From Isoetes taiwanensis (Eukaryota; Streptophyta; Lycopodiopsida; Isoetales; Isoetaceae): a stretch of DNA of 64,000 bases. Below the pieces are notes generated by a model, which made no database searches, was not told the origin of the DNA, and was given only the letters and a program-made list of their open reading frames with translations. Location of the stretch: positions 16,802,041 through 16,866,040 of the forward strand of contig JAJEKV010000002.1 of NCBI GenBank assembly GCA_021234155.1. Direction: 5' to 3'. The position numbers were made by a program, and so were the translations under genes. Positions 8,292 to 63,979 of this stretch are shown piece by piece (the stretch's first letter is position 1; every line of letters begins with the position of its first letter).

Positions 8292-8292
8292 A

Positions 8293-8858: not shown

Positions 8859-9930
8859 ATGGCCCAAACCAAGCAGACCTACAGGAAGCCTGGTCCAAGG
8901 AGCACACCCTCTATGGCGGCAGCAGCAGCAGGTGGCCATGGGAGGCAAGTTCCACCGCACCTCCGGCCGAAGCCAGGCGATGAGGCGTCGTCTTCCTCCA
9001 ATGAAACCTTCCATGCATCTCAGGAGGAGCCCCAAAGCAGTTCGTCGTCGGTGGAGAGCCAGCGGACCGACGAAACTCACCACCTTGGCCCCCTATCCGA
9101 CCAAGGGGGAGCCCAAGAGGACCAGGAGGTGGAGCACCAAGAGGTGGAGCACCAGGAGGAGGAGGCCGGGCATCAGCAGGCAACAGCTTCTTCCAGCAAG
9201 AAGAAGAAGGGGAAGAACAAAGTAGCAGAGTGGCCAGAAGAAATGGCAGCGAGGAAGAAGAGGGAGAGGGAGCTGCGGGAGAAGGAGCGGAGGACTAAAA
9301 TGAGGAATGATCGGCCCCGCGGGACGGTCACAATTGAAGAACCTCGCCCCCGCGAGGTAGATGAAGAGGAAGAGGCAGAAGGAGGCGGAGGTGAGGAAGA
9401 GGAGGTCGAAGAGGAGGAGGAGCAGCAAGACGTTGGGGAGCCTTCAGACCCCAACGCATGCCCACCCTACCCGAAGTGGCCCAAGCCACCAAAGGTAGTT
9501 AAGAAGCAGAAGGTGGGTGAGCGTGAATTCGCGCTCAAACAAGATCGCGAATTCAAACGCAAAATGAAGGTGTACCAGGAGTACCTTCATCGCTGGACGA
9601 GGTACAATGATTGGTACTGTAAGCAGAATGTGGAGAGGTTTGTCAAGGGCGGGTGGCTGAAGAACCAGCCGAAGCTACCTCCACCTAAGCCGCACTAATC
9701 TCCTAATAAGGAAGGCGCCCTTCGAACGCCTTCTTCGTGAAGTCTTGCAGGAGTTCCGGACCGATTACAGGGTCACGCCTCTAATGACCCAGGCCCTGCA
9801 AGAAGCCTCAAAAGCAGAGCTGATCCAGCTCTTTGAGGAGGGGAACCTTTACGCCATCCACGACAAGCGGGTGACGATCATGCCCAAGGACCTGGACTTG
9901 GCGCGGAGGACCCGCAAAGAGAGGCCCTAG
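8859..9930 (+). pseudogene. Histone H3-like protein with a long acidic tail (element A copy)
   Basis: The frame opens with MAQTKQTYRKPGPRST, which keeps Lys4 and Lys9 of the canonical H3 start (ARTKQTARKST) but has Gln2 and Tyr7. About 270 tail residues follow, with Ser-, Lys- and Glu-rich blocks and a Trp/Tyr-rich segment at about residues 235-265. After a frameshift near 9685-9697 the histone fold resumes: [17 protein letters not shown], then [16 protein letters not shown], then [14 protein letters not shown] and LARRT, ending in TAG. This covers alpha-N to alpha-3 of H3. Loop 1 has normal H3 length, so it is not obviously a CENH3. The Cys110 position is Tyr. Canonical H3 is 136 residues; this protein would be about 355. 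It sits inside the LTR element before gag. The frameshift could instead be an unrecognised intron. Confidence 0.88.
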
Positions 9931-10136
9931 GACCTCAAATTTTGTAATTTTGTTAAAATTAAAGTCTTTCTTAGTGTAAACGGGTTTTTATTAATATATA
10001 CTAGTAATGGTGCCTAGCGTTGCTGGGCATAAGTTGGGAATATGTATGGGCAAAAACATGTTCATCTCAGACTTCTTTTCATAAATCTAATATGATAGAA
10101 GTCCAGCATTGCTGGGCCATAATAGGGTTTTGTGTA

Positions 10137-11700
10137 TTCGACACCCTTTTCCTTTCCTTTGCCTTTTGCTCTATCCCGCGTTTCCTTTTTCATCATTCTC
10201 TTACGCACTTTCTTTTTCCCTTTATTTTTCCTATTTTCCTTACACATCTTCTTTTTTCCTTCTCCCCATTTTTTTACCCCCCTTCTCCCTCCCCTTCCAT
10301 TCCCTTCCCTTTCCTTTTTTCGTTTTTCTCTTTCCATTTTTTTATGGACTTTTTCACTTCCCTTTTCAGTCTTTCCTCTTTTTTCCTAATTTTCCCCTGC
10401 TTCTTTCCCTTCCCTTCCCTTCCCTTTCCCTTTCCCTTTCCCTTTCCCTTTCCCTTTTACATGTCCTTTTTGTTTCATTTTCCCCGTCTTTTTCATGTGG
10501 CCTTTTCTTCCTTTCCCCACCCTCTTCCTCTTTATCCCATGCTCTCCATTTTTCCATTTCTCTCTTCCCTTTTTCTTGTACCATTTTTCCTTTCCCTCTC
10601 CCTCCCCCTCCCCTTTTCATCTCCCTCTTCCTTTTCCTTCCTTTTTTATCCTTTCTGTACCCTTTCCCTTTTTCCCGTGCCTTTTTTCCCTTTCTCTTCC
10701 CTCTTCCTTTTCCTTTTCTCTTTCCCATTCTCTTTTCCCATGCCTTTTTCCATTCTTTTTTTCCCACCTTTTTTACGGGTCCCTTTATCTTTTTCCTCAC
10801 CCTCTTCCCATTTTCCCTTTCCCTATCCCCCCCCCTTTTTTTTTTCTATTTTCCATGCTCTTTTTCCCTTGCTTTCTTTCCCTTTCCTCACTATTTGCCT
10901 CTTCCATTTTTCACGTGCCATTTTCCCCTTCCTCTTTCCCTTTTTCCTCTCCTTTTTCCTCGCGCCCTTTTTCCCTCCCCCTCCCCCCCTTCCCTTTTTG
11001 GCCTCCCTTTTCCCTTTTTTTTTTGCCTTCATTTTTCATCCCTTCTCCTTTTCCATGTGCCTTTTTTCCCTTTCCTTCCCCCTTCCTTTTCCATTTTTAT
11101 TTTCCCATACATTTTTTCATTCCTTTTTCCTCACCTTTTTTACGTGCTCCTTTTCCACCGTCTTCCCCTTTTCCCTTTTTCCATTTCCCTCCCCTTTTCT
11201 CTTTTTCCTTTCCCCTTTGCCATGCTCTTTTTCCCTTTCTTTTTTTTCTTTTCCTCACCCTTTTTCTTTTCAAATTTTCCCATGCCCTTCCCCTCTTCCT
11301 CTTTTCCATTTTCCTCTCCCATTTTCTCGTGCCCTTTTTCCCTTCCCTTTTCCCCGTTTTGCCTCCTTTTTCGTTTTCCCTTTCCCCCTATTTTTCGATG
11401 CCTTTTTTTCATCTCTCCACTATCTTTTTCTTCCCCCTTTTTCCTTTTCCTTCTTTTCCTCACCCTTCCCCTTTCCCCTTGCCCTTTTTCCCTTCCTTTT
11501 CCTCCCTCCCCCTTTTCTTTTACCTTATTTTTTTCTTTATCCCATACTATTTTTTCCTTTCCTCACCCTTTTCCTCTTCCCATTTTTTCCATGCCTTTTT
11601 TCCCTTCCATTTTTCCCTTTCCCTCTTCCCCTTTTTCTCGTGCCTTTTTACCCTTCATTTTCCCCTTTTGTCCCCCTTTTCCTTTTCCTCTTCCTCTCAA
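10137..11700 (+). repeat. 1.55-kb polypyrimidine tract
   Basis: Almost only C and T on the plus strand, with CATGCC, CGTGCC or similar purine-containing interruptions recurring every 50-150 bases. It looks like a degenerate array of TTTTTCCCTTTCC-type units. All three plus frames stay open because pyrimidine codons contain no stops, so the apparent Phe/Ser/Pro/Leu proteins are artefacts. Such mirror-like tracts can form triplex (H-) DNA, which is an inference here. Confidence 0.85.
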
Positions 11701-12007
11701 GAGATCAAAGCGAGAACCAATCACAGTGGTGGGAAGTCATGCGATAAATCTTGGCCTTCAGATGCGATCTGATAATCTGAGCCATCTAAATTAGGGCGTG
11801 GTCCAACACTTACGGTAAAACTTTATAATATAAGATAAGATAAATTCTCTTACTCTGGAAATTGGATTATATGATGCTTGAAAATGTAGGTAATTAAGCT
11901 AAATTGTAGTAGAATTCTTTGTAAATCGTTTAGAAATTGCCTAGAAACCTGAGTAGAACAAAATTTCAGCAAAAATTATCGAAGATCGACAAAAATTCGG
12001 GTACCCA
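11701..12007. other. Non-coding spacer before the hairpins
   Basis: Nothing recognisable; AT-rich. Confidence 0.4.
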
Positions 12008-12068
12008 GGTGAGACCGCGCCAATCCACCATGCGTTCGCAACGCAGACGTGTTTCGCGCGGATTCACC
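12008..12068. repeat. 61-nt hairpin, copy 1 (element A)
   Basis: Arms GGTGAGACCGCGC and GCGCGGATTCACC pair except at two central positions. The loop contains the palindrome TGCGTTCGCAACGCA. It lies between the H3-like and acidic genes. Its size equals that of the hairpins in element B at 55-63 kb. Confidence 0.75.
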
Positions 12069-12208
12069 CGGTTACATTGAAATTTGGCTTCTAGATGATA
12101 ATTTTGTTTGAAATAAGTTGCTAGCTAGGTTAGAATTGATCCAATTAGGCATGTTAGCATCTTGTAGCTCCTAAAAATGTTAAGTTTTGACCCAAATCAG
12201 GCCAACCG

Positions 12209-12269
12209 GGTGAGACCGCGCCAATCCACCCTGCGTTCGCAACGCAGACGCATTTCGCGCGGATTCACC
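12209..12269. repeat. 61-nt hairpin, copy 2 (element A)
   Basis: Direct repeat of the hairpin at 12008-12068, 201 bp downstream, with the same arms and nearly the same loop. It lies about 300 bp before the acidic-protein start. Confidence 0.75.
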
Positions 12270-12569
12270 TGGGTCGACCATGTTTGACCTAGACTAACCA
12301 AATTTGACCCAACAAACGGCCATGTAGTGTTTCTTGCTTTGTTTTGCTTAGATTTGTACTTCATGGTAGTTCAATTGGAGACCTATAGCCTTAGAACAAA
12401 AGTCTCTCCCATCAAGAACCCTTGTGCACGAAACCCGAGGCAGACCATAGTCTATAAAAAGGGCCTCATTTGCCATTTTCCCTTCACCAGAACTGTTCCT
12501 AGCATCTTAGGCGATTTTCCAACCTTTCACTGATCCTTACAAGCCATTTTCTACACTCATTTCTGCTCA

Positions 12570-14105
12570 ATGGCGCCTAGTAACTTTGTCAGATGGTATG
12601 ATGCTGCCAACCACATCCGTGACTTTCCTACTGATCAAGCCTTCCAGGTGTTCGACCATTTATTTGATCTTCATGCAACATTGACCAGAACACCCTTCTA
12701 TACTGATATCATTTGCCAATATGACCAACAGGTCCTACCATGGGAAGTTAGCTTACCCCCCTAGGGGAGGGAATTGGGTATCTCTAGAGACACTTAGCCA
12801 AGCCTTAGGAAGAGAGATGGGAGGATCCAAGGGCAAGAACCAGCTGTGGGATAGGAGTAGAACCATGCCCGACTACATGACCTGCAGGCATAATAGACAT
12901 AGATACCTCTCATCCCAGACAGCCCTTGCCCTATTCATGCAGTATAAGTCAGTCAATAGGGTGGGAGAACCTTCCATTCAGCCCTTAGACCTAGCACCAC
13001 TCAACACTCAAAGAGACCAAGGCCACATCCTTGAGATAGACTCCTCGGAGTACGAATACCATGGAGCGACATCAGGGACAGCAATTCTACAGATCGAGCA
13101 AGACTACGAGCAGCTAGGGGAGGAAAATCCAGAATGGGAAAGCAGAGAGGCGACGAGGATGGAGAGGTACATGGCCAGGCACGATGACGACATCAGGCGA
13201 GCCTACGAGCCACCAATCGGCATCACAGCCTTGTCACCAATAATCATCGACGGAGAGGAGTATATCTTGGCAAACGACATCCTCAATCTACCTTACTGCC
13301 AAGAAGAAGGGCTTAGGATCGACGAGCTCTTAGGCTTGATGGCACAGGAGCAGAACACCGACCTCATCGACTACTCCTACCAAGAAATTCCAAGGGAGTT
13401 AGCAGAGCGGCACTCCTACGCCGGGGAGACAATGTCAGATATAGCAGCCTATCAGCAGATAAGGGAGATCTATCGACAACATGAACCCATCATCCCAGAG
13501 GAGGAGTTCCAAGAAATACAAAGCAGGTTGTACAAGCCAGGAAGAGGCCCAAGCTCTAGCCGGACAGTTCGTTCTAGGAGTATGCGGGAAGCATCCAGCA
13601 GCATCAACTTGGAGAACGCAACTACCATGTGGAGGGATCATGAAGACCTCTTGGCAGTAGATGTCTACGGCGGGCAGCTCAAAGGAAGGGCACAGGATCA
13701 CGAAGCACAGGCAAGGGTACGGCGCTCCGCTATTACCTCCTAGCCTCAGTCAAGGGCAGATGATAGTCTTCCACAAGGAGTTCAGCCCAAGAGGGGAAGA
13801 GTCTGTGGCGCTCCTCATAGCACTCTCTGGCTTCGGGCAACACTCCAAGATTTACAGCCATGCGGATCACATCGTTCTCTTCAAGAGATCCGTGGCGCTC
13901 CACTGCCTCGACTTCGCCAGAGGCCACCTCAGGGACGCGACACTATCAGTAGTACTTAGCGGCAACCGCACCAAAACTCCCGGCACCGCAAATGGCCCGA
14001 GCACTCGAAGGAGGATCAACCAGGAACATCTTGCGCAACCTCGGCAAAGGCCTTCGGCTTAGGGATGTCAAGAATTTCTTCAAGTTGACGAAGGGCCATC
14101 GATGA
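12570..14105 (+). pseudogene. Uncharacterised acidic protein (element A copy)
   Basis: I do not recognise the family, but it is homologous to the protein at 61335-62749. Shared blocks in order are: an N-terminal FVRWYDAA / FLEWYASA; GNWVSLETL / GSWIPKPAL; RYLSSQTALALF / TYFSLPFAFASY; SPIIIDGEEYILANDIL / TPILVEDKEYLLLSDIL; IPEEEFQEIQSRL / LPTEEEFQRLRAKL; GQMIVFHKEFSPRG / GEIIVFSRTFSPKG; and a C-terminal LGKGLRLRD / CGRGLKEHEID. Length is about 510 residues, with many Glu and Asp. The frame is broken at about 12755 (a C run), about 13735 and about 13950. It lies directly upstream of gag and downstream of the H3-like gene, in the same direction. A chaperone-like partnership with the histone is only a guess. 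Confidence 0.75.
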
Positions 14106-14339: not shown

Positions 14340-15728
14340 CCAGGAACACCGGCTCAGGTTCTCAAGGCCAGGGCCGACATCACCAATGGGTACCTAGAAA
14401 CTTATTTGGATGTGAACAAGACGACAACAACGAGGAAATGATGGTGGAATCAATCAACGCAAGGCTCACCCAGATGAGGAACCAGATGCATCAGCTGATT
14501 CACTGGGCAACCCCATTGATGAACGCCCAAGAATATGCACCTGCACCACCACCTCCCCCCACCACTACCTCAGCAAGACGTTGAGGAGGTTCCACAACCA
14601 GAAGGGGAAGGCAATCAGGGAAATGTCGGGGACAGAAAGAGAAAAAGGAGAAACCGAAGGATCCCAACACCATCCAGCTCAAGTTCATCAGACACTTCTG
14701 GCTGCCAAGACAGTTCTAGCTCAGAGAGTGAGTCCGATACATCACAGGTAAGAGCCAGGGCAAAGAAGACAGATGACTATCAGAAGAAAGTTGACAGTGC
14801 TATGAGCAATGTATGGAAGACCAGGAAGTTGGGTCAGGTCTGGCATGGAGGCAGAAACTTGGCTTGATGAGATGGAAGAGTTTGGTAATTCTTATGGCAT
14901 GAAGGACAAAGATATAGGGAAGGTTGCTACAGCAAACTTAATAGGGGCAGCTAGAATTTGGTGGAAAGGTTACGCGAAGTCCAATAAGCTGAAAAGGAAC
15001 GGTTGCAGATTCAAGACCTTCTGCAAGGCCTTTCGCAAACATTATGTGCCAAGATCACATACTAGCAGGCAGATCCAGCAATTCTACAGATTGAACCAGG
15101 GTACCTTATCAGTAGCAAAGTACACAGAGGAATTCATGCGACTCAGGCTCCATGTTCCCGGAGTTTCTGAAAGGCAAGCGGTTGAAACCTACATTGAGGG
15201 ATTGAACAGCAATATCAAAAGGCTAGTCCGAGCAATAAACCCAAAGACAGTGGCAGAAGCCGAGGATAAAGCTATAAGTTTGGAGGAAGCACCACAAACT
15301 CCAGGGGAGAAACAGTCGGCCTTCAAAGATAAATCAGCAGGGCAGTACCAAGGGCAGTATCAGAATAAACAATCGACAACTACGCCAACAGGAGGCCACC
15401 AGCAAGGGAAAGTTCAGGGTAAGACCTTTGGGGATCGTAAGACACAGAATGGAGCAGGGGGCAGTTCACTGAAGCGCCTTGTAGACAGCCTGCCCAAGGA
15501 AAAAGGCAGGAATGTATCGAGAAGAAGCTATGTTTTAGGTGCTTCCAGCCAGGGCACCGAACACACGATTGTCCATTCGTTATGCAGGCAGCTTTGGCAG
15601 AACTTGCAGATTGGGATTCACCAACTGAGGGAGACAACGAAGAGGACGACCAGCAGGACGCGCAAGATTTCATAGAGGGTGAGTGCCATATTTGTGCAGC
15701 TATTGAGTCAGATGATGTTGAAAATTAG
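14340..15728 (+). pseudogene. gag: Gag of the chromovirus
   Basis: The capsid-type region includes METWLDEMEEF-like residues at about 14850, WWKGYAKSNK, FRKHYVPRS and YTEEFMRLRLHVPG, the usual Ty3/gypsy retrotransposon-gag signature. A CCHC zinc knuckle (C-x2-C-x4-H-x4-C) lies at 15531-15572. Ser-rich and basic residues precede the capsid region. Gag packages the element RNA into cytoplasmic particles. There are frameshifts near 14570, 14835 and 15480, and a TAG at 15726-15728 separates it from protease. The first in-frame ATG pair is at about 14440. Confidence 0.85.
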
Positions 15729-17320
15729 TCCACAGTCATTGCGGCTGAGGGAATCATAGATAGCAGTCCATATCTAGTCTTGATAGATACAGGTAGCTCT
15801 CACAACTTTGCCTCTCCTAGGCTGGCTGCCCTAATGAAGAATAAAGTCTTGAAATCTAAGCCAAGGCCAGTTAACATGGCAAACGGTGCCATTCGGCACA
15901 TTAAGGGGAGGAGGATCACATTTGACATAGACCTTAGTGGAAGTAAGTGGCCGATGGGGGCAGAGGTCGTGGATATTGGAAGATATGACCTTATAGTAGG
16001 AATGGAGTTCTTAAAGCCAGCTAAAGCGATGATTGACTGCGACCGCAACGAGATCTCCATGACAGCACCAAACGGCATCAGATTCATAGTAAAAGGTAAG
16101 AAGGTAGCTTCTCCCATGCAGTGTATTTCTTTGAAGCAGCTAAAAAAAAATATAGAAAGAAATAAGGTGGATTATATCCTGAGGTTAGAAGCAATTGACC
16201 CAGCTAAAGAGAAGGGACGTGACCAAAGTGGGAATCAGTTGCCCAAGCCAATAGCAAGGCTCATTAGGGAGTTCAATGACGTATTCTCGGATCAAATCCG
16301 TCAGCTACCACCTTATAGGGGTATAGAGTGTGAAATCACACTAGCTCCAGATGCTAAGCCTACCAGCAAGGCACCTTATAGGATGAGCACCCCGGAGTTG
16401 ATTGAGCTCAAGAAACAGCTGCAGGAATTGCTTGACCTTGGATTTATTAAAGCAAGTGCATCTCCTTTTGGAGCACCCATACTCTTCGTGAAGAAGAAGG
16501 ACGGGAGTTTAAGAATGTGCATAGATTATCGCCAGCTTAACAAGCAGACGATAAAGAATAAGTATGCGTTGCCAAGGGCAGATGATTTGATGGACTAGCT
16601 CCAAGGAGCAAAAGTATTCTCTAAGATTGACTTAAGGTCAGGTTACCATCAAATAAGGATAAAGGAAGAAGATATCCATAAGACCGCCTTTAGAACGCGG
16701 TATGGGCACTTTGAGTTTACGGTAATGCCCTTTGGCTTATCGAATGCGCCGGCGACTTTCATGCGTCTCATGAACGACATCTTCAGGGACTTCTTAGATG
16801 AGTTTGTCATTGTTTTCTTCGACGACATTCTAGTCTACAGCAAGTCCATTGAAGATCATTGTCAGCATTTGAGAAGAGTGTTGGAAAAGTTAAGACGGCA
16901 TCGCTTGTATGGGAAGCTCTCCAAATGCCACTTTGCTACCGAAAGAGTGGAGTACTTGGGCCACATAATATCAGCAGAAGGGATCTCCACCGACCCCGCA
17001 AAGATTGAAGCAGTCGCTGATTGGCCAGCTCCAAGGAATGTGGCAGAAGTGAGGAGTTTCCTAGGTCTGGCAGGATATTACAGGAAGTTCGTGAAGGACT
17101 TCGCTAAGTGGGCGTCCCCTTTGAGGACCTCACTAAGAGTGTTAAGGTGAAAGATTGGAGAACACGTTGGCTAGAATATGTTCAAGCTTCATTTGAAAAG
17201 CTTAAGGAAGCCTTAACAACAGCGCCAGTGCTAGTTCTGCCAGATCCAGATAAGGACAAGATAGTAGCAACGGATGCAAGTAAGATAGCAACAGGTGGAG
17301 TCCTTATGGAAGAAGGAATT
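15729..17320 (+). pseudogene. pol: Pol: protease, reverse transcriptase, start of RNase H
   Basis: The protease active site LIDTGSSHN is at about 15780. Reverse transcriptase follows, with [57 protein letters not shown] and the catalytic FFDDILVYS at about 16815. It continues through YLGHIIS and [18 protein letters not shown]. RNase H begins with VATDASKIATGGVLMEEG and stops at the inversion breakpoint at about 17320. Pol copies the element RNA into DNA. There is a TAG at 16596-16598 in place of an expected Gln and a frameshift near 17125. The remainder of pol is on the opposite strand at 18188-20018. Confidence 0.93.
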
Positions 17321-17349
17321 TATAGCGTATATTCCCCTGGAACATCACA

Positions 17350-17362
17350 TTCTCCCCCCCTT
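17350..17362 (-). promoter_or_regulatory. Polypurine tract (inverted)
   Basis: On the minus strand AAGGGGGGGAGAA directly precedes the LTR start TGTGATGTTCC. This is the plus-strand priming site of the element, now flipped with the inverted block. Confidence 0.75.
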
Positions 17363-18187
17363 AGGACAATGCTGTCCTCAGCATTGCGCTAAGGTGATGA
17401 ACCTATGCTATCTCTGCAAAACAACATTAGTATACAACTTTAATTTGAACGATCAACTTCCTATTAAGAGTTAATTGTCAAAATCTTAGACTATATTTGT
17501 ATCTATACAAAATTATATAGCCTTAACAAGGTTACTCCTTATAATAAATCAAAACATTACTATAAGAGGAGTTAGGGTTCATAATTTAAATCTAAATCAT
17601 GGTTCCCCCATCTTCTCGTAATGCGCCCCTCCTCGATGCTCGCTTCTCACTTGCCTGCACGAGTAGCACATTACATTATTTTAGTTAATAAATTTGTGGT
17701 TTTAGGGGACCACCCCCCTTACCTAATACCTTGCACTCGATCATGGCCCTTTCGGATTTGAGCTTAAGGACCATTTAAGATGATCCCATCATTGCCCATG
17801 ATCAAGTGCTACCTTGTACTCAGTTACCCGGTGCCGAGTACCCCTAGTGCATCATGCCCCAAGGGTTTTAAGCTAGGGAACGTCTCACGATCCCATCATC
17901 GTGCATGATCACTTTGACCTTCACTATGACCCCCCTATGGCCAGGTGTGCGAGCCCCGCATCGTGGCATAGAGAGCATCCGACCGATGTCCCATCATCGC
18001 GCACCATGCCTCACTTCCTCTCTCGCATGACCCTATTGGTCATGCGCACCTCTTGGTGCATGTTGGCCTAGAGAATGCCTTAAAGGCTTATCTCATCATC
18101 GCCTACACGTTCCAAGATTCTGGCATATGTATTCCACTAGCTAGAATACATCTGCCAGAGCTAAGGCTAACTAAGAAACATACTAAG
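17363..18187. other. 3' untranslated part of the chromovirus (inverted)
   Basis: No coding sequence. It lies between the chromodomain stop and the polypurine tract. It contains C-rich blocks with CCCATCATCG-like motifs recurring at about 17780-18000. Confidence 0.5.
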
Positions 18188-20018: not shown

Positions 20019-21622
20019 TTCCTGGACCCGTCACCATACAAGTCTACACATGTAGCCTTGTATACCTTAGAAGTGGCAAGGGGCACATATCTAAGTTAAT
20101 TGTATAACTTAGATAACCTTAGGATAAGGCCCATTTCCACATGGCCTTATCCTATTGGGCAACCGCCACACGGCCCCATCCTAGTGGTGCCACGTGGCAT
20201 CCCACGTGGACCCTCATCTATATTGGCTCAAACCCTAACCCTAGACCCCTTTTCCTGACTCTAGCACCTGAACACTCCTCTACGCACTCGAAACCCCGTT
20301 TCGAGCATCGTTCGTCGTGGCATAGCCTGGTGCAGCAGCCCCCGAAGCGTGCGCATGATTGTAGAGGGAGCACGACTTCGACCACATCAAGGAGCAATGG
20401 AGACACCAGGGATGGGAGGAAGCGCTTCTGGAGCAGGTAGGTGGAGTAGAGTCATGTTAGTTCATCTGGAAGTTAGCACTCCAGATGGGCTTGTATGTTG
20501 TATCTTGAGTAAAGCCATCCTAGAACCCTTGTTGAACATCTTGAACCCTAATCAAGGAATCCTAACTGTAAGTTAGATAGGTATGATTAGGTTAAGATGT
20601 TCTTATGATGTTACCATGATGTGATGTGATGATGGTTGATCATGTTTGCTCTTCTTGTATTGGGAAGGGGGGTAGAGACCTAGTAGCCTTACTTAGTAGT
20701 ATGCTCCTAGTTTAGACCCCTTAGTTCCTATTATTATTGCGGCGTGTGCATAGGAACCCACCGGACTATTGAGGCTATGATGTGACTCAGCACTACACAA
20801 CGGGGCTAGAGGCAATGAGGAGGGAGGATCCCTGCCGAGTGGGGGCTACGGTGGATCCCATAGTGGGCTAGGCTTATGATCGGTCACTTCGTATGGGCCG
20901 AGCATGGGTCCGACACCTCCTGGGGCAATGGTGTCAGCCTGCCTCTCAAGAGTTGCAAGTGTTAGCTTGGCTCTTGTTTTGGGGGGTTCAGTCGGGTATA
21001 AATCGTGTGTCGCCACGATTCTCTAGCCGCCCGAGGAGCCTTTAGACCCCGGGGAGGGGAGATGCAACCCTTCCTGCCTCGACGGACCGGGGAGATGAAA
21101 CCTGGAGTAGTCCCGATGGGTGATACCATGGGATTGCGTATCCGGAAGGCTAGAGTCATGTCAGAGCCTGATCTAGCCCATCTGCAAAGTATGCACAGGA
21201 GGGGCGGATGGAGTGGTCAACCCTAGCCATTGTCTATAGCCAGCCCCGCCATTGTTATGACTCGGTCTGCTCTATCTTGAGACCTATCCAGTCAGTCGAC
21301 CTCCTTATGAGTCGGAGCCACGGGTAGGAGCTCTCATGTTTTACGGTATATGATTATGATCCTTGCAGCTATGGATATGTGGTGAGCTACCCTTCGAGGT
21401 AGTATGATGTATTGTTTTTGCTAGTTCTGACGATGTTTATGCTTCCGCTGTGATAGGAGCCCATAGGGGAAGGGCACGCAAGACACCTTCGTGTCCCCTT
21501 CCCGCACTACGGTGATTCTAGAGTGCGGGATAGACGGAGGGCCCGTGCGGTCGGAGGACCGGATGGGGGATTTCCTACGGAGTGTACGGCTGGGAGCCGT
21601 ATATTTAGTAGGGAGCATTACA
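20018..21622 (+). repeat. 3' LTR, lacking its first ~38 bases
   Basis: Direct repeat of 6690-8291 with few differences. The missing start of the LTR is at 17319-17349 in reverse orientation because of the inversion. It ends TTACA, followed by the GTGGT target duplication. Confidence 0.92.
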
Positions 21623-53989: not shown

Positions 53990-54003
53990 TGGTATCAGAG
54001 CCA
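53990..54003 (+). promoter_or_regulatory. Primer binding site, initiator tRNA-Met
   Basis: TGGTATCAGAGCCA immediately after the short LTR. Confidence 0.75.
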
Positions 54004-55019: not shown

Positions 55020-55741
55020 GAATCATAGAATCGGCCGATTTGGATTCAAGATAGAACGACGTGTCATATATTTTTATTTTGGGCTCTGCCAAAGTGCGAT
55101 ATAGAGTGGCAGGCAGAACTGTCGGTCTGCCCAATCATTAGGGCGGATTTGGGGTCTCAAAATGGCCTCCTATCAACCATTCCACGTCATATTTTCTCTC
55201 CTTTTTTCCCATGCCACCTAGGATACCAAACTCTCATAATTACAGATTTGCTTGGAATATTCTCCCCGAATACGGGGGATCGCACATTCATGGCGCCATA
55301 TGTATTTAATTCTGTTGGTTGTCAGACAGACTGATGCAACACGTGGCGCTTCTAAAAAGCCACTTGCATTATAGCATACCGGCAACTCATGACGGTGTCT
55401 CTTGGTTTGTCAGATACCAAGCATGAGCGTCACCGATTCTTGTCTTGCGCTATTTTCATTTAGAGGCCATGGCCATACAAGCTTCCCGCCTTCTACATTT
55501 CAAAATTTGAATGTGTAGGTTGAAGCTTTGTATCAGACTTTCATTTCGAGGCGCTGCGATTGCGCCTTAAAAGTTCGTAAACCGGGATCTTTACTTCATC
55601 CCAATACAGGCTTCCCGCCCCCCTACAATTCGAATTTTGAATTTGCTAATGTATAAAAGCATGGATTGTAGGAGAATGGACTTTTCGATTTCCATATGCA
55701 CGTTGCAAATTTAAAAAATGAGGTTAGTACGGACGTTCGGC
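55020..55741. other. Left flank of element B
   Basis: No gene supported. The left end of element B is not identified. Confidence 0.3.
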
Positions 55742-55802
55742 TCACACGAAGCGAATTGTGCTGGGGCATACAAATTGTACACCTTCATTTCGCGCCGTGC
55801 GA
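55742..55802. repeat. Element B hairpin 1
   Basis: 61 nt. Arms TCACACGAAGCGAA and TTTCGCGCCGTGCGA; diverged. About 135 bp before the transposase-like frame. Confidence 0.65.
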
Positions 55803-55937
55803 TCCACGCAGTATGGAAGCTCCAAATGATATGTGGATAAGGATCCAACTGACTCACGAATATGCTCCAGTCTTCAATCGCAAAAAAGGAACCTCGACGT
55901 GTTGCGTCTTGCAGGCTCAAAAAGTGTCGACATCTAG

Positions 55938-58434
55938 GCGGATGGCAGTTTATATCCATTGGATCCGTTGAGTGGCAAGAAACCGTCATTTCGAGACGTT
56001 TCAAGTTTAGTCCGATTTTGTGGTGACGGTAACTCTGGCCTCCTGGGATATTATGAGAGATTGAGAGAGGATGAAGGCATTCGGAATCGAATACAGTTCC
56101 TTGAGATGAGCTGCTTCCGATTGTCACAAGAGAATTATAACTTAAACCAGCAGCTCTTTTTTCTCTCACTTCATTACTCCACTGCAATGAAGGAAAGGAA
56201 TGACGGCTTGGGGAGGGAAACTTCTTTGAGATACGAAGTGGACAAGTCCAAATTGGTGATAGGGCAGCTGCAAGAAAAGATCCAAGAGCTCGAAAGAGCA
56301 AACTTTGGGCTTCAATATAGGTTAAAGAATTTGAAGAAAACACCCCTTGGCTTGCGAGAAAGGAAGAAGCACTTTCGACCGATAGAGGAACTGAAGTTTG
56401 GATCAGGTGCATTCAGACGCAGGATCACGGCCACAAGGTCCGTTTACAACACTAGCAAAGGCCAATTAAGATCTGGGAAAACTAGAAGCAATCTTGGTTA
56501 CGTAGTGAAGAACCTAGCGACAAACAGGGAGATAGTGGACATGATTTGTCAGCCCTACAACTCTTCTCTCAAGAAGATGGTATTGGAAATGGTACTAGGA
56601 GAGATCTACAAGAAGCTAGAAGCGACAGATGTACAGACTGTTTGTGATGATGTAGGCATCAGTAGGCTTGGTTACCGTTCTCTATTCAAGCCATTCCACG
56701 AAGCGTTGAAAAGAATGGGCACAAAAAAAGTGTTCGCTCCACGTCCACAAATTGTTGAGAATACACGGGTTACTAGGACAAAGATGGTGTATGCCATATT
56801 AGGAGAGATGCACCACGTTGAATGTGCTGGTCCTGCCATAGCCATAAATGATAAGAATGACAAGGATTGTTGTGATATAGTTGGAATGAATGAACGCAAT
56901 AATCTTTGGGTTGACCTGGTTAGTCTCTTACAATTCCTTGTCAAATACTATGACTTAACAGTTGCAGAAACTAATGGTGAGATTGAAGTTTGCATAAAAT
57001 TGGATGAAATGGAACTGACCAAGTTTGAGAAGTATGAGAGGGTATCCGTTGTCATCATGAATAGAGCAATTGAGAATGCAATTGCACATGCTAAATCAAA
57101 GAGCAACAAGAATAATAAAAAAGATGTAGAGGTGACGGATGAGGAGAAGAAGCGTGCCGAAAAATGGTTCTCATGTCAATCTGAAGATGACACCTGGTGG
57201 TTAGGTCTCTTTAAAGTTCAGAAAGAAACCCACGAGGTATTGAAATGGGTGTTCAATCAAACTGACATCCCAAGTCTAATATCTAGATTCGAGGGAGGGG
57301 AAAAATTGCAAGTACATCACTATGGACCTTACAAAGTAATTTTTCACTTGGCGTCTGATTTAAAAACTGAGAAAGCAATGTACAACATAAGTGGAGGAGG
57401 ACAAGGAACATGCAAAAGTTGTCTGTACTGCAATCATGCAAGGAAGTCAAGTACTGGGAAGACTGTTTCAACCTTGTCCCTTAACCAAGCAAATGCTCCT
57501 AATAGAGGAGAAGAAGATCCCAAGTTCCATGGCATTTTCCCCATTCCATTAGAGAGGGTTCATATCTGCACTTTGCACGGCTTTGTGAGAATCATCGACA
57601 AGATATTTTTGAGCTACAGATTCGTGTGGAACATTTCAGACAAGAAGAGAAGAGAGGAAGGAATTCGTAGAGTTGAACATGTTCTATCAGAAGCAGGTTT
57701 GCATGGTGGCAATGTAAGATTAGAGCTCGATGAGAAACGGGCAGGAAGAACACGTGTGCCTCGTAAGGTGTCAATTGGAGGGGTGAAAGCTCGACGTTTC
57801 ATAAAGAATCATAGAGAGGCTCTGAACGAAACCAGATGGGAGAAAAGGTATGAATTTGGCAAATTGCTGGTTGATGCGGAGCAGGACCGCACAGATGGCG
57901 TTCGTTCGGCATTGAGGAAAAAAAAAAGCATGGGATGCATTGTCTGAATTGTTCCCATACATTCAAAGAATGGACCTCACAAGAGAAGATGCAGAAATGT
58001 TCGTGCAAGCGAATAACTAATTTATTAGAGCTTTCATAGACGCATGGGGAGAGAGTGAAGTCACGCACTACTTGCATATCTTTTGGGCTCATGCACCTTG
58101 GTTTTTTAGGAAGTATGGAAGCCTAGCAGTGTGGAGTGCACAAGGCATGGAGAAGTCGCATAAACAAGCTAAAATAGCCTTTCATCGTAACACTCAAAGA
58201 GGGGGTGGAAATGTGGGAACCAACCCTCTAAGACAGATGATAGAGTGGTTTTATAGAAGGGCGATGGCTAAATACGACAAGAACGTCGCTTTAAGGAGCA
58301 ACCCAGAAGTCGTAAACACCATTGGCATAATGCTGAAGAGAAAACGGGAAGTTCCTTGGCAAAATTCTAGGGCCCCACTAGCATTGCAACAGTGGAGATC
58401 TAAGAGACAAAGAATCGGTAAAGTATACTTGTAA
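55938..58434 (+). pseudogene. DDE-type transposase-like protein, superfamily unresolved
   Basis: About 830 codons. An N-terminal coiled-coil-like part (about 56090-56330) precedes a basic linker. Candidate catalytic core: the first Asp in CIKLDEMEL (57003) and a second in HLASDLKTEKAM (57354). A CxxCxxC zinc-like cluster follows (CKSCLYCNHA), then an LHGFVRIIDKIF helix motif resembling the LHxxLRIxD block of several animal and fungal transposase-like families. Last comes Glu in SAQGMEKSHKQAK (58150). A LRQMIEWFYRR helix and a basic tail finish it. The frame shifts after a 10-A run at about 57918 and meets TAA at 58018-58020, with homologous-looking codons continuing. No ATG precedes about residue 50, so the start is uncertain. 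It probably mobilised element B. Confidence 0.6.
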
Positions 58435-58448
58435 TGTGTAGCATGTTC

Positions 58449-58509
58449 ACACGACGCGAAGTACTTGCCTCCAACCTTGTTTGCACAACTGTAGCTTCGC
58501 GTCGTGTGG
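58449..58509. repeat. Element B hairpin 2
   Basis: 61 nt, perfect 14-bp arms CACACGACGCGAAG / CTTCGCGTCGTGTG, 15 bp after the transposase-like stop. Confidence 0.9.
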
Positions 58510-58520
58510 TCTTATTTGTA

Positions 58521-58583
58521 TCATACGGCGCGAACAGTGGAGTTCGCTATTGCTTGCATTTATGTGGCTTCGCGTCGTGTGAA
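58521..58583. repeat. Element B hairpin 3
   Basis: 63 nt. Left arm ATCATACGGCGCGAA is diverged; right arm TTCGCGTCGTGTGA is canonical. It lies 38 bp after the stop of the minus-strand gene at 58621-58791. Confidence 0.8.
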
Positions 58584-58620
58584 GCTTTACAAGATAATAA
58601 TAAAAAAAGGTTACTTTTGA

Positions 58621-58791
58621 TTAAAGTTGTTCTTCTTCTTTCTGCTTCTTTTGCTGAATTGTAACGGCGTTTTCCTTTAGAAGATCATCTTGCTCCGTCA
58701 ACCTCTTCATTAGAACACCCAACACTATGTCAGAAGGGAGTTCTATCCTCTGGCGTTTTCCCTTATCAGTGATTGAGGATGTGGAGGCCAT
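58621..58791 (-). CDS. Small coiled-coil protein 1 of element B (56 aa)
   Basis: An ATG-to-TAA frame starting MASTSSITDKGKRQRIELPS. The block ELPSDIVLGVLMKRLTEQDD aligns with LPVDITLAVVMKRFKEIHDE in the gene at 60509-60931, and more weakly with IPAEILSQVLVKEIKNIRAE in the gene at 59212-59631. A charged helical tail rich in Lys, Gln and Glu follows. No known family is recognised. It converges on the transposase-like gene, with two hairpins in the 186-bp gap. Function unknown; short helical proteins of this kind often form dimers. Confidence 0.6.
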   Translation of the reverse strand: MASTSSITDKGKRQRIELPSDIVLGVLMKRLTEQDDLLKENAVTIQQKKQKEEEQL

Positions 58792-59018
58792 AGATGACAA
58801 ATGGGAGGGACGTTAAGATTATAGAAGTGAGGAGCAAAGACTCTAACCGGCGGAAGGAGCACAATGCAAGGACCTCAATTTATACATATTAGCGCTTGAA
58901 CATATTAAACACAGTCGGCTGCTGTCGCACGTGTCGAGCGGATTCTGTCGGTTGTCCGTAGCACAAATTAATGGTACTGTCCGCTGGAACACATTAATAA
59001 CTATTCTAACTACACTGT
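58792..59018. other. Intergenic spacer of element B
   Basis: Upstream region of small protein 1; no further feature. Confidence 0.4.
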
Positions 59019-59082
59019 ATCACACCACGCGAAATCTGCACACGCGCTTTAAAACCCTATGAAGGGTTTCGCTTCGTGTGAT
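59019..59082. repeat. Element B hairpin 4
   Basis: 64 nt. Arms ATCACACCACGCGAAA and TTTCGCTTCGTGTGAT with one mismatch, about 130 bp after the stop of the gene at 59212-59631. Confidence 0.85.
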
Positions 59083-59211
59083 CTGTCTTGTCATTCTCTC
59101 TACCACGGATATTGAAAATTAAAAATAGGAAACGTAATATTCGGCACATTTTTCAAAAACTTTTTCCATTGAGAAACAAAATAATTACAAACATAAAAAA
59201 AAGGGGCCTCT

Positions 59212-59631
59212 CTAGGAGGAGCCCGATGCAAGCTCTTCCTGGAGGGCAGTGATAATTTTTTTCTGCTCCTCCAACATGATTGCCTGCCCCGCAACCACGT
59301 TCTCATACTCTGCAACCTTATCTTCCCGCTCATCGAGTTGAGCTCGGGCAGCCTCGCCCGCTTCGATTGCGGCCCTAAGCCTCTCTTGGAGGTTAGATCT
59401 CGTGGCGCGCAATTCGCGGTCTATGGCAGCCCGCTGATTGTCGCGCACTAAAATCACCTCCCTATAGAAGGCGGCCTTGTCCTCTGCCGCAACCAGCTTG
59501 GCGACGTCTTCATCATTCTTTTCTTTCAGAAGGCGGATCTGTTCCTCCGCTTCAGCACGAATGTTCTTAATTTCCTTGACCAGAACTTGAGACAAGATCT
59601 CGGCAGGGATGGAACTGGAGCTGGAGGCCAT
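59212..59631 (-). CDS. Small coiled-coil protein 2 of element B (139 aa)
   Basis: An uninterrupted ATG-started frame beginning MASSSSSIPAEILSQVLVKE. The rest is almost continuous amphipathic helix (ERLRAAIEAGEAARAQLDER, then EDKVAEYENVV and LEEQKKIITALQEELASGSS), so a long coiled coil is likely. It shares the MASSSSS start and the Ile/Leu-Pro-x-Glu/Asp-Ile block with its two neighbours. No enzyme motif, signal or membrane segment. It is the only element B gene here longer than 100 residues without an internal stop. A structural or DNA-bound dimer role is possible but unproven. Confidence 0.65.
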   Translation of the reverse strand: MASSSSSIPAEILSQVLVKEIKNIRAEAEEQIRLLKEKNDEDVAKLVAAEDKAAFYREVILVRDNQRAAIDRELRATRSNLQERLRAAIEAGEAARAQLDEREDKVAEYENVVAGQAIMLEEQKKIITALQEELASGSS

Positions 59632-60133
59632 TGAAAGTGATGGGAGAACAGGAGAGATGGCTGAGGGCGGATGTGGTAGAACAGGAGATGGCGGATAGGA
59701 GAAGACAAAGGCCTCCGACGTTTTATATAGAAACTAGAGATACGTTGGAATCTACGGTTGCGAGTACCGATAAAGTTGTGTAATAATCCTACGAGGCGAA
59801 ATTATAGCATGCAATCAGGCAACGGTAGCCTATGTTCGCATCATGGGATCCGTCATATCCTAGCCGTACTGTATGCAGGCCGTACAAAAGACAGTGTTAT
59901 TGTGGCAGCGCATGCCACGTCCTTGGCATGACGTTGTCATCCACATGCCACGTATGTGAGTAGACGTCATCCACATGCCACGTGCTTTGAGTGCTGGCGC
60001 TTGCCAAACCTAGATATGACTAATTCGCATTTACCTGCAAGTTATCACATAATCTAGCTAGATATTTGTGTTACATATAGTTTTCCATTAATAAATTAGG
60101 AATTTGTACATACAACGAGGTGTACGTTATGGA
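59632..60133. other. Upstream spacer of small protein 2
   Basis: Includes a duplicated 25-bp block (GTCATCCACATGCCACGT) at about 59936-59981. No gene. Confidence 0.45.
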
Positions 60134-60200
60134 GATCATACGACGCGAAATCCATTGATTGCTACCTAATTGCAAGCATGGCATTTCGCGTCGTGTGATC
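60134..60200. repeat. Element B hairpin 5
   Basis: 67 nt. 18-bp arms GATCATACGACGCGAAAT / ATTTCGCGTCGTGTGATC with one mismatch. Part of a ~210-bp tandem duplication with hairpin 6. Confidence 0.92.
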
Positions 60201-60343
60201 TTTTAATAAAACAAAACAAGAGAACAGATAGAATTAATAATTTTTATTAATAATTTCGGTGATACAATCTATACATAAGTAATTTTACTGATACATAAGT
60301 AAAGATAGAACTTCTCATTGAAGCAAAGATAGAACGGCATGGA

Positions 60344-60410
60344 GATCACACGACGCGAAATCCATTGATTGCTACCTAATTGCAAACAAGGCATTTCGCG
60401 TCGTGTGATC
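60344..60410. repeat. Element B hairpin 6
   Basis: 67 nt. Perfect 18-bp arms GATCACACGACGCGAAAT / ATTTCGCGTCGTGTGATC and almost the same loop as hairpin 5; about 100 bp after the stop of the gene at 60509-60931. Confidence 0.95.
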
Positions 60411-60508
60411 TTTTAATAAAACAGAACATACATTTGAACAACCGAATAGATAGAAGCAAAAAATAGAGAAAACTTTTCTTTGAAGCAAAAAATAGATAGA
60501 TACAACGG

Positions 60509-60931
60509 CTAGGGATCTTCATGATTCTCTAGTTGATTTTCATCATCCTCTAGCTGATTTTCATGGTCCTGTAGCTGAAGCCGTAAGGCCGCGTTCTCAT
60601 CCTCTGCAGCTCGAAGCTTCTTCTCCATATCTTCTAAGGCCTGCGAAATATTGTGGGCGGATTTCAAGCGCCTTCGCCCCTGCTGACTAGTCGCCTCTTG
60701 GTACATGGCGAATGTTTTAATGAGCTCAATGTCTCGCTCATGCGGCCGGCGCCCTCGTGAAGGCTAATCGTCGACCGCCTCCATATTCTCGGCGACGAGG
60801 CTACCATTTTCATCGTGGATCTCCTTGAATCTCTTCATCACCACTGCAAGGGTGATGTCCACGGGCAGCCGGGCATTTGGGGAGTGCTATCTTGGCATGG
60901 TAAACTTGCTAGATGAAGATGAAGATGCCAT
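60509..60931 (-). pseudogene. Small coiled-coil protein 3 of element B, two internal TAG codons
   Basis: 141 in-frame codons from ATG, beginning MASSSSSSKFTMPR. The second block is ARLPVDITLAVVMKRFKEI, and after MEAVDD there is another in-frame TAG. The tail resumes with a helix-rich KKLRAAEDENAALRLQLQDH and the short acidic repeat ENQLEDDENQLENHEDP. Both stops are TAG and the frame is otherwise kept. This gene therefore either decayed recently by point changes or, less likely, is read through. It is homologous to the other two small proteins of the element. Confidence 0.6.
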
Positions 60932-61051
60932 CGGAGTAGAAGGTGGAAGGCGGAAGCCGGAAGTAGAAGATGAGCAGAAGGCGGAAGGCGATCGGAGGTC
61001 AAAGTGGACATAGGTCTTCTATTTATAACATAGATTTCGTAGTAGCTTGAG

Positions 61052-61113
61052 TCACACGACGCGAAGGATGCCGTCGGTCAGGAAAATGGACCGTTGCTTC
61101 TCGCGTCGTGTGA
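61052..61113. repeat. Element B hairpin 7
   Basis: 62 nt. Arms TCACACGACGCGAAG and CTTCTCGCGTCGTGTGA, about 120 bp upstream of small protein 3. Confidence 0.88.
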
Positions 61114-61170
61114 GGAATAAATAAATTAATTGTTTTTTTCCAATAATATTTCATTTCTTCGAGAGAAATA

Positions 61171-61232
61171 TCACACGACGCGAAAACCTAGATATGACAG
61201 AAAATCAGACTGATGTATTTCGCGTGGTGTGA
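61171..61232. repeat. Element B hairpin 8
   Basis: 62 nt. Arms TCACACGACGCGAAA and TTTCGCGTGGTGTGA, one mismatch, about 100 bp after the acidic-protein stop. The following AT-rich block (about 61250-61310) is a copy of 60236-60290. Confidence 0.88.
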
Positions 61233-61334
61233 ATAGATACAAATAAAATAATTTTTATTAGTAATTTCGGTAATACAATCTATACATAAATAATTTTACC
61301 GATACAAGTTGGAAAATATATAACTTCCAATTTT

Positions 61335-62749
61335 TCAAGCTTCGTCGTCAATTTCATGCTCTTTCAATCCCCTGCCACACTGATCCAACAAGGCAATGAC
61401 TTCCATGTTATCGACCCCAGCTTCCAACCTTGGGTGAGTTAAGCCAGCAGCTAAAAAAATTAACATATTGCTCGCCCGCAGACCGGCTTGGTCGTCAAAA
61501 TATTGTAACACAACATCCTGCCGAATTGCTATCACCCTTTCAGTGTTTGATACTCCCGAACATGCATAATGCACGGATGTAATAGACAAACTCTGCACCT
61601 TTTGGACTGAAAGTTCTGCTGAAGACGATTATCTCCCCATTAACGAATCTTGAGATATATCGTAACAATGTGGAGTCCTTCAATCTTTCCTATCCCCCGC
61701 GTGCATGTCGGCAAGAAAAATCATCTACTTCCCACAAATAAGAACCCTCAAGCTTATCTTCTTCACATTTCTCCTCATCTATGAGGCTTATGCTGTCGCG
61801 ATTGACTGAAGGGCCTGCCAAACCTGTAGATCCTGTTGGCAGCTTTGCACGGAGACGCTGGAATTCTTCTTCCGTTGGTAGATTCGCCTCCTCTTGAGTA
61901 AATCGAGACTCCAGCCTCTCATAGGCTTCTTTAAGCTTTATAGCATTGCCGGTATAAGAAGACACTTCAAACATCTCTTTGTCCAAATCCTCTTCAAAAT
62001 CTAGGCCTAGGTTTACCCATTCGGCCAAGGTACTGATAAGCTCGTCTTCCCTAGCACACATTTGTAACAAAGACGGGTTCCTCAGTATATCACTTAGCAA
62101 TAAGTATTCTTTGTCTTCCACTAAAATTGGCGTTATGTCAGACAACTCATCCTCATCCTCATCCTCATCCTCATCCTCATCCTCATCCTCATCACCTTCA
62201 GAATCATCTTCCTCCTCTGGTTCACCCAAGGCCAGTGCGTCGATGCCAAAACTCCTACATTCTTGCTCTTCTTCTTGTAGATCTATCTTCTACGTCATAG
62301 TCAGCATCATCACACATAACTGACCCCACTTGGCTTAAAGATTTCATTGTTTCCAGTGTATCTTCGGTTTGGCCGAGCAGAATGCAATAACTAGCAAATG
62401 CAAATGGCAAAGAGAAATAAGTTACCTTCTTAAGTACAAGGACGCAGCCAGGAGGAGCCCGTTGCGCAGCATTCTTGAAAAACATCTTCGCTGCTTGCAA
62501 ATGGGAAGCCGCTTCCTCTAGAGCTGGTTTTGGAATCCACGAGCCAGGGACATTTGCAAAGGACGTGCGCTGAGACCAAGCGGTCCGGCTGAAAGCTAAA
62601 GCAACCTCGCGATAGCATCCAAGCTCGCTATTGTTTGCCATGATGTCCAACTCCTTGCAATAGAACGGATAAATCGCAGTCTGCGCAACTTCCTCGTTGT
62701 CATGCGGGGCAGATGCATACCATTCCAGGAACTTCACATAACAATCCAT
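61335..62749 (-). pseudogene. Uncharacterised acidic protein (element B copy)
   Basis: Homologue of the protein at 12570-14105 in the LTR element, colinear over its whole length. From the ATG at 62749 come FLEWYASAPHD, GSWIPKPALEEA and FSLPFAFASY. A shift near 62300 leads into a Glu/Asp run coded by a CTCATC hexamer array (62146-62194), then TPILVEDKEYLLLSDIL, LPTEEEFQRLRAKL and LWEVDDFSCRHARGG. A TAG near 61690 is followed in the same frame by GEIIVFSRTFSPKG. A second shift near 61570 gives the C-terminal VVLQYFDD, CGRGLKEHEIDDEA and a stop. About 470 residues in all. No known family. It follows the H3-like gene in the same direction, as in the LTR element. Strong acidity would suit a histone-binding protein; that is inference. 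Confidence 0.75.
62146..62194. repeat. (CTCATC)8 hexanucleotide array
   Basis: Codes for the alternating Asp/Glu stretch of the acidic protein on the minus strand. Confidence 0.9.
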
Positions 62750-62896
62750 GGCGAAGCAGACGACGAAAGCAAGAAGCTATTTAGGAGCGGTAAGACGCTG
62801 TCACTTCTGAACTCAAGTAGTCGTTGTTGATTATGAAAGGGGATACAACCGTTGTGGGGAGATTTGTCCGTACATTTTAGGGTTAGGGTTAGGGTT

Positions 62897-62964
62897 GGAT
62901 CACACGACGTGAAAACTACTATGTGCAAAAAAAAGAACAATGCTTTCTGCGCGTCGTGTGATCC
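62897..62964. repeat. Element B hairpin 9
   Basis: 68 nt. Arms GGATCACACGACGTGAAA and TTTCTGCGCGTCGTGTGATCC, between the H3-like gene and the acidic-protein gene. A short GGGTTA triple repeat precedes it. Confidence 0.9.
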
Positions 62965-63104
62965 TCACGTATAACATTAAAAAAAAAATACAAAGTGCGA
63001 ACCTAGGCTTCTAAGAAAGAAATGGACTAAGAGATTAAGCTTATAAAGCCATATGAAAAATATACATATGAATATTATACATATGAAAAAAACACAAAGG
63101 CACT

Positions 63105-63979
63105 TCACGACCTTTTTTCTGGGGGGTCTTTCTTCTTGTTGTATTCAGCCATAAAATTTTGACCATAGTACTCGGGATCCCTTATGCGTAAGACCAGGCG
63201 CATGTCCTTGGGCATGACAGTCACCTGCTTGGCATGTATTGCTGCAAGCTGCGAATCCTCGAACAGACCGACACCAACTGCTTCCGAAGCCATTTGAAGA
63301 GCATTTAAGACAGTTGCTTGAATTCTGTAACTGGTATGATGTATCGCACCACACTCTTGCAGAATCTCTTTCACGAGCATGGGAGACGCGGAATGACCAT
63401 CTCAGTGCTCTTCTGATACTTCTTAATCTCGCGAAGCGCTTTAATGCCAAGCTTCGTCTTCCGCTTCCGGCCACTACCCTCACCCACCCCAGCATTTGCA
63501 GGCTGTTTCTCGGCCGACTCTTCCGGCCGTCTCCTCACCCCAGCATTTGCAGGCTGTTACTCGGCCGACTCTTCCGGCCGTCTCCTCACATTTCTGGTCG
63601 CCTTCCCCTTTCTGGCGTTGGGCCTCCTCCTTTGATTTGAAGGTCCTGGCGCATCCACAGGAGGAGCAGGAGGAGCAGGAAGAGCAAGAAGAGGCGGTTG
63701 CCCAATAATTAATCCGACGTCATATTCTGCTCGCCGGTCTCTCACATTTTCATCCTCCGTCTGCGAACCGGAGTGCACCTCCCTACTTACTCCCGAGCTG
63801 CTTCTCCCACCATCTGTCATGCGGATTTCTTTTCCGGATCTTCTGTTAGGCATGGTCGGAGGAGGAGAATCTCTATCAGAGACTTCAGATTCAGATGTGG
63901 ATGAAGGAGGCAGACCAATGTAATCACCTGGCCTTACATCCCCTGGATGGATCCTTGCGGTTTGCTTAGTTCTTGCCAT
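63105..63979 (-). pseudogene. Histone H3-like protein with long tail (element B copy)
   Basis: Starts MARTKQTARIHPGD: the first eight residues after Met are exactly those of canonical H3, but Lys9 is Ile. About 165 tail residues rich in Ser, Pro and Arg follow. Then comes a recognisable alpha-N ([19 protein letters not shown]) and the histone fold ([48 protein letters not shown]), followed by a unique 20-residue tail ([14 protein letters not shown]). Loop 1 ([13 protein letters not shown]) is four residues longer than in H3, a trait shared with CENH3 proteins. Breaks: a TAA near 63554 inside a duplicated 51-bp unit whose other copy has AAA, and a one-base loss near 63382. About 291 residues if unbroken. 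Next gene downstream is the acidic protein. It may lie near the other end of element B, which leaves the window. Confidence 0.88.
63491..63592. repeat. 51-bp tandem duplication in the H3-like tail
   Basis: Two head-to-tail units coding RRRPEESAE-x-QPANAGV, where x is Lys in one and a stop in the other. Confidence 0.92.

Follow-up and report, generated by a model that had tools for sequence, protein, structure and literature searches.

A histone H3 gene without lysine 9 and an acidic-protein gene in a DNA transposon of Isoetes taiwanensis, with a related gene pair in a Ty3 retrotransposon

Introduction

Plants silence mobile DNA partly through methylation of lysine 9 of histone H3 (H3K9). In Dothideomycete fungi, hAT DNA transposons amplify a captured histone H3 (PMC6710886). 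In VANDAL transposons, proteins encoded by the element bind to motifs in its noncoding parts and erase silent marks (PMC10398659). Furthermore, DNA viruses are reported to carry their own H3 (PMC9145170). The subject of this work is a stretch of 64,000 nucleotides from the lycopod Isoetes taiwanensis (GCA_021234155.1, contig JAJEKV010000002.1, positions 16,802,041 to 16,866,040, forward strand), referred to as the window. On its right side lies a DNA transposon with several genes, and a diverged H3 and an acidic protein are among those that it regularly encodes. In the same genome, a Ty3 chromovirus carries an H3 and a related acidic gene, in this same order, between its long terminal repeat (LTR) and gag. 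The original prediction, made from the letters of the window, had taken this gene pair to point to a mobile chromatin module exchanged between Class I and Class II (or virus-like) elements.

Results

The H3 of the DNA transposon

The H3-like gene of the transposon (H3-b) encodes a histone fold (PF00125, 1.7e-15) and a tail, MARTKQTARI, in which isoleucine takes the place of Lys9. All four H3 and acidic genes in the window are damaged by frame breaks or stops; less damaged H3-b copies with open frames of 293 codons exist elsewhere in the genome. One unbroken frame of 291 amino acids (L011:4529-5401) begins with MARTKQTARIHPGG and continues through a charged linker, some 160 residues long, into the fold, which aligns to H3 from alpha-N to the C-terminus. 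Its loop 1 is four residues longer, and a longer loop 1 is a trait of centromeric H3. In a comparison with solved structures, H3 types rank best, the best match reaching 9.2e-31. A protein database search with the H3 query gave 5153 matches; canonical H3 sequences occur in many of the 120 listed, and the three examined consist of two H3s in tandem.

The tail is covered in 19 of 21 distinct loci. Lys4 and Arg8 are present in all 19 tails, and position 9 is isoleucine in 16 of them, threonine in three and lysine in none. Compared with a canonical H3 tail, ARTKQTAR is retained, with the first eight residues nearly invariant, Lys9 is missing, and the linker that follows is unrelated. The ratio of nonsynonymous to synonymous substitution rates (dN/dS), calculated from 19 copies with a codon bootstrap, is 0.42 for the fold (0.28-0.71), 0.45 for the tail (0.23-0.88) and 0.74 for the linker (0.57-0.96). 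For the N-terminal block of the acidic protein it is 0.33 (0.21-0.49, 13 copies), and for the rest of this protein 0.61-0.69. For the transposase, dN/dS is 0.63 (7 copies), rising to 0.92 at its end (10 copies).

The fold of H3-b has at least 151 matches in the genome (150 of 6474 candidates were scored). Stops are absent from the matched fold in the first 27 listed, and many later matches have stops. Gene order was surveyed in 17 stretches, including the window, which were sampled around high-scoring matches with a preference for long open frames; this sample is biased to good copies, and some missing genes or termini reflect the ends of the stretches. In 14 of the 17, an acidic gene lies 3' of H3 in the same orientation; four of these acidic genes are split by an insertion. 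The gene is missing from C1026, C1028 and C1100:23625000. With four further short loci of the same arrangement (L002, L004, L005 and L007), the pair is found at 18 of 21 loci overall. A gene termed X lies 5' of H3 in 13 of the 17 stretches, a DDE-like gene on the opposite strand in 11, and both termini are present in five, one of which is an internally deleted copy. The proposal that these are genes of mobile elements is thus borne out by the number of matches, the recurring gene order and the inverted termini. A reading as ordinary host genes was rejected, because the DNA-element H3 is repeated this often and sits within repeated termini.

Two loci stand apart. The element at L018:5454-6870 has an H3-b that is 93% identical in the fold, yet between its acidic protein and that of the window the identity is no more than 45-68%. 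It looks as though subfamilies had exchanged the acidic gene, or as though this gene were evolving faster. At L029:33-335 (C1028:5800032-5800334) there is a decayed, near-canonical H3, 67% identical to residues 11-117, which is perhaps a pseudogene of a host H3.

The acidic proteins

Within the window, the acidic protein of the LTR element (acidic a) and that of the transposon (acidic b) are 31% identical over 118 residues (E 1e-13). Their C-terminal pieces give no BLASTP alignment in the window, since frame breaks interrupt the block that they share in acidic b; compared with a less damaged copy, this block aligns with 39% identity over 54 residues (E 8e-12). The two blocks score 60.1 and 46.6 bits, whereas the maxima reached by 500 shuffles of one copy (C1045) are 36.2 and 21.2, respectively, so that the similarity claimed in the original prediction holds for both. 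Judged by these alignments, the acidic proteins form one family across a Class I and a Class II element. An acidic run is present in acidic b. No relative of acidic a was found among 2286 protein-database candidates, and its predicted structure, with a mean predicted local distance difference test score (pLDDT) of 35.2, is too low in confidence for a fold search. An intron in acidic b was considered and dropped, as other copies read through that stretch.

A third relative is located at C1100:23626426-23629569 (L024:1427-4570, minus), where an X-like gene is followed by a gene of the acidic family, with no H3 found in the stretch around them. The product of this acidic gene is 41% identical to acidic b over 82 residues (E 2e-18) and 34% identical to acidic a over 74 residues (E 1e-11). 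The acidic gene may therefore represent the core component, with H3 as an addition to it, as far as these sequences indicate.

Anatomy of the transposon

CATTAGGGCGGATTTGGGGTCT terminates the transposon at both ends, at 55136 and at window-equivalent 65837, giving a length of 10,702 bases (10.7 kb). The right terminal inverted repeat (TIR) ends past the end of the window, and the original prediction does not mention terminal inverted repeats. The matching inverted termini and the internal DDE-like gene assign the element to the TIR DNA transposons. No exact target duplication longer than 3 bp was found in the five copies having both ends. The C1045 copy is inserted in a related LTR, and its joined flanks align to the window LTR without duplication, with a poor alignment at the right flank. 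Membership in the hAT superfamily is not indicated, since the five two-ended copies lack an 8-bp target duplication and the Pfam search returned no hAT family.

The DDE-like protein has a single database relative (P0001), with 37% identity by BLASTP over 97% and 41% in the alignment (7995 best candidates scored). Its C-terminal part is weakly RAG1-like around the catalytic Glu (PF12940, E 0.019); RAG1 chains also rank first, but with E 0.22. The Pfam matches include no MULE family and no curated family at all above its cut-off, and the predicted structure (mean pLDDT 35.6) is too low in confidence for a fold search. Gene X lies beyond the window end (L010:6325-7108, minus); its dN/dS is 0.56-0.69, and the part searched matches no Pfam family.

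Eleven palindromes accompany the genes of the transposon, each consisting of CACACGACGCGAA arms, with at most three changes, that are separated by 33-35 bases. The palindrome pair arose in none of 20 first-order Markov simulations and does not occur in the rest of the window. Six other transposon copies contain 5 to 10 of these palindromes each.

The gene pair in the Ty3 chromovirus

The element on the left side of the window comprises LTRs, gag, protease, RNase H, integrase and chromodomain, which identifies it as a Ty3 chromovirus. TGGTATCAGAGC, directly after the 5' LTR, resembles the primer-binding site for plant initiator-Met. The region that contains the protease also includes what we take, from its motifs, to be the reverse transcriptase; the Pfam search covered the protease part. 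The segment 17318-20017 is inverted relative to gag and reverse transcriptase; it contains RNase H, integrase and chromodomain as well as the initial 33 bases of the 3' LTR.

The H3-like gene of this element (H3-a) and acidic a are both located between the 5' LTR and gag. The coordinates (Table 1) confirm that H3 and acidic gene share order and orientation in both elements, and a histone fold is found in both H3s, that of H3-a with PF00125 at 2.5e-23 (9661-9930). H3-a has the tail MAQTKQTYRK, in which Lys9 is kept (AQTKQTYRK), then a charged linker and the fold. Two further LTR copies carry this type of H3. In the C1100 stretch, H3 starts with MARTKCNARA, with alanine at position 9 and a fold that is 63% identical; this start lies 247 bases past the end of the matched leader, compared with 248 in the window, and the 5' LTR of this copy fell outside the fetched stretch. 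The C1026 copy has an LTR that is 83% identical, followed on the same strand by GKTKQVARK without a preceding Met, then by a broken fold and by pol genes. Because both copies also carry H3, it looks like an old component of this LTR lineage, as far as three copies can tell. The acidic gene was not found in the C1026 copy, which has H3 and pol, and the acidic partner of the LTR-type H3 is documented in one of the three copies, that of the window. A nested insertion of the pair into the LTR element was considered and is less likely, given the spacing of 247 versus 248 bases and the presence of H3 after the LTR in the third copy.

Two palindromic repeats lie just 5' of acidic a and differ in sequence from those of the DNA transposon. 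The repeat at 12189-12276 includes TTTCGCGC, which resembles an E2F site; S-phase control of the H3-a and acidic a pair is possible. A pyrimidine-rich (CT-rich) tract of 1.6 kb is found at 10100-11700, 3' of H3-a. Beside an H3-b copy at C1100:23637080-23638145 there is a tract with 67% similarity to that of the window, but its sense with respect to the gene is reversed.

Other features of the window

A gene with a plant-type CRM domain is encoded at 48917-50593. Three tandem copies of about 220 bases are present at 5924-6574, and similar sequence lies inverted 21 kb away at 27629-28024.

Table 1. Features of the two elements, in window positions
Feature	Position	Strand	Remarks
5' LTR of Ty3 element	6652..8292 (approx.)	+	97.0% identity over 1611 bases to 20018-21628
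H3-like gene a, damaged copy	8859..9930	+	ATG 8859; tail reading frame to 9695; fold in a different frame to 9930
Two palindromic repeats	11988..12276	+	86% alike; between H3-a and acidic a
Acidic-protein gene a, damaged	12570..14105	+	ATG 12570; main reading frame 12685-13740; C-terminal part 13661 to ~14105
gag	14806..15672	+	PF03732 5.5e-18
Protease and reverse transcriptase	15729..17150	+	Protease by Pfam, PF08284 2.5e-8
RNase H, integrase, chromodomain	17318..20030	-	Inverted segment; Pfam and LTR alignment
3' LTR	20018..21628	+	First 33 bases present inverted at 17318-17350
Left TIR of DNA transposon	55136..55165	+	Comparison among copies
Ten of eleven palindromes, CACACGACGCGAA-N33..35-TTCGCGTCGTGTG	55743..62960		Between or beside genes
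DDE-like transposase, damaged	55938..58431	+	Two frames, 55938-57944 and 58021-58431
Gene cc1	59215..59631	-	Coiled-coil-like by eye
cc2 region	60511..60933	-	Coiled-coil-like by eye; broken in window, twice present in several copies
Acidic-protein gene b, damaged	61335..62749	-	
H3-like gene b, damaged	63105..63979	-	ATG 63979; tail to 63560; fold 63401-63108
Eleventh palindrome	65081-65141 (window-equivalent)		Overlaps X reading frame

Discussion

We propose that the transposon supplies chromatin of its own making. The transposon H3 would be built into nucleosomes on the element DNA, and with a tail that has Lys4 and Arg8, lacks Lys9 and is replaced by an unrelated linker thereafter, this chromatin could not take H3K9 methylation. 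The Lys9-less tail may also tie up the methyltransferase, and the element would thereby escape silencing. The acidic protein would act as chaperone or loader, while the recurring palindromes may be an address read by one of the element's proteins, for which the VANC motifs of Arabidopsis are the nearest precedent (PMC10398659). To the whole chain, a transposon-borne Lys9-less H3 resisting silencing with an acidic loader and a palindrome address, we assign a probability of about 0.42. The sequences themselves establish that the element is mobile and has several genes, as well as its copy number, the homology of the acidic proteins, a dN/dS below 1 for the H3 fold and the acidic N-terminus, and the missing Lys9 of its H3; nucleosome incorporation, escape from H3K9 methylation, the chaperone role and palindrome recognition are the steps that we infer.

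Several results weigh against this proposal. Position 9 of the LTR-type H3 is lysine in two of three copies (window and C1026) and alanine in C1100, so a missing Lys9 is not a general feature. In Pfam, neither a chaperone domain nor any other family reaches its cut-off with the acidic protein. No H3 was found between or near the X-like and acidic genes at C1100:23626426-23629569, in a stretch that ends 1.4 kb past the acidic gene, which speaks against H3 and acidic protein as an obligate chaperone pair. Fold, tail and linker have overlapping bootstrap ranges, and the choice of copies by H3-fold similarity and open frame lowers dN there; the dN/dS of the acidic protein is not directly affected by this choice. 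Furthermore, the palindrome motif was picked after being seen, and no test of K9I was found in the literature searched.

A distinct possibility is that the acidic gene, together with X, is an old transposon core, and that a host H3 was captured beside it in two separate events, one in the DNA transposon and one in the LTR element. The third element, with X and an acidic gene but no H3, would fit this history. The tails-plus-linkers of the two H3 types are likewise not detectably similar (24.6 bits versus a shuffle maximum of 32.7). The LTR-type fold of the window is 45-49% identical to the DNA-element folds versus 62% to canonical H3, and the DNA-element folds are 58-63% identical to canonical H3, so that each resembles canonical H3 more than it does the H3 of the other element. 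However, canonical H3 evolves so slowly that this closeness is expected under either history, and a tree of nine H3 sequences gives three groups and, being unrooted, does not distinguish sister pairs. The identical order and orientation in both elements and the long charged linker between tail and fold in both H3s also argue against two separate captures.

It is less likely than not that a self-made chromatin system of Lys9-less H3, own loader and address palindrome is shared between Class II and Class I elements as an anti-silencing module. Of the exchange originally predicted, the presence of one acidic family in both classes stands. Movement of the pair as a unit is hypothetical, because the LTR-type H3 was seen with its acidic partner in one copy, the H3 tails with their linkers have no detectable similarity, each fold is nearer to canonical H3 and no H3 was found in the stretch around the third acidic gene.

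Alternatively, host-derived H3 and acidic genes could be passengers, amplified by the transposon without function as in fungal hAT elements. The documented amplification of H3 by a hAT transposon (PMC6710886) and the stops in many listed copies would agree with this. We consider it improbable, as the H3 fold is only 58-63% identical to canonical H3, yet has a dN/dS below 1, the pair is kept at 18 of 21 loci and the first eight tail residues hardly vary. Least probable is that H3 serves the packaging, replication or targeting of element DNA in virus-like or centromere-like chromatin and not the escape from silencing: the longer loop 1 and the H3 genes of DNA viruses (PMC9145170) suggest such a role, but the best 60 of 176 solved chains matched are H3 types with none named centromeric, and no relatives of the transposase or acidic b were found in viral contigs.

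If the proposed escape from silencing is true, a transposon that supplies a Lys9-less H3 attacks the substrate of the silencing mark and not its enzymes, and would be a natural, testable counterpart of laboratory Lys9 mutants. That a retrotransposon holds a related pair would suggest a transfer of such tools from one class of element to another.

Comparison with known systems

The fungal hAT elements resemble the Isoetes transposon in that a DNA transposon with terminal inverted repeats multiplies an H3 sequence to many copies (PMC6710886). They are described with one or two H3 copies per element, inactivated by repeat-induced point mutation in P. fijiensis, and with an 8-bp target duplication (PMC6710886). 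In contrast, the H3 of the Isoetes transposon is diverged and lacks Lys9, it is accompanied by an acidic gene and by several others, and no target duplication was found in its two-ended copies. VANDALs are Mutator-like elements that are not known to carry a histone gene. The VANDAL/VANC system of Arabidopsis is similar in being a plant DNA transposon with several genes, in whose noncoding parts short motifs recur, and anti-silencing is likewise proposed for it (PMC10398659). The VANDAL motifs are described as tandem repeats (PMC10398659), whereas those of the Isoetes element, whose own anti-silencing role is putative, are palindromes beside genes.

The single H3 of viruses is comparable as an H3 encoded by a non-host genome (PMC9145170). 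These H3s belong to viruses and not to a TIR transposon or an LTR element, and the search of viral contigs found no relative of acidic b. From work on Lys-to-Met and Lys-to-Ile substitutions, a tail with isoleucine for lysine is reported to inhibit the methyltransferase. The K9M and K27M mutants of H3 share with the transposon H3 a residue other than lysine at a silencing site of the tail (PMC6562757). Unlike in these mutants, the Isoetes residue is isoleucine or threonine and belongs to a natural, transposon-borne gene, whose product may inhibit the enzyme in a similar manner. The open-access literature searched yielded no transposon that combines a Lys9-less H3 with an acidic partner. The capture of H3 by transposons is already known; its use against silencing would, if true, be categorically new.

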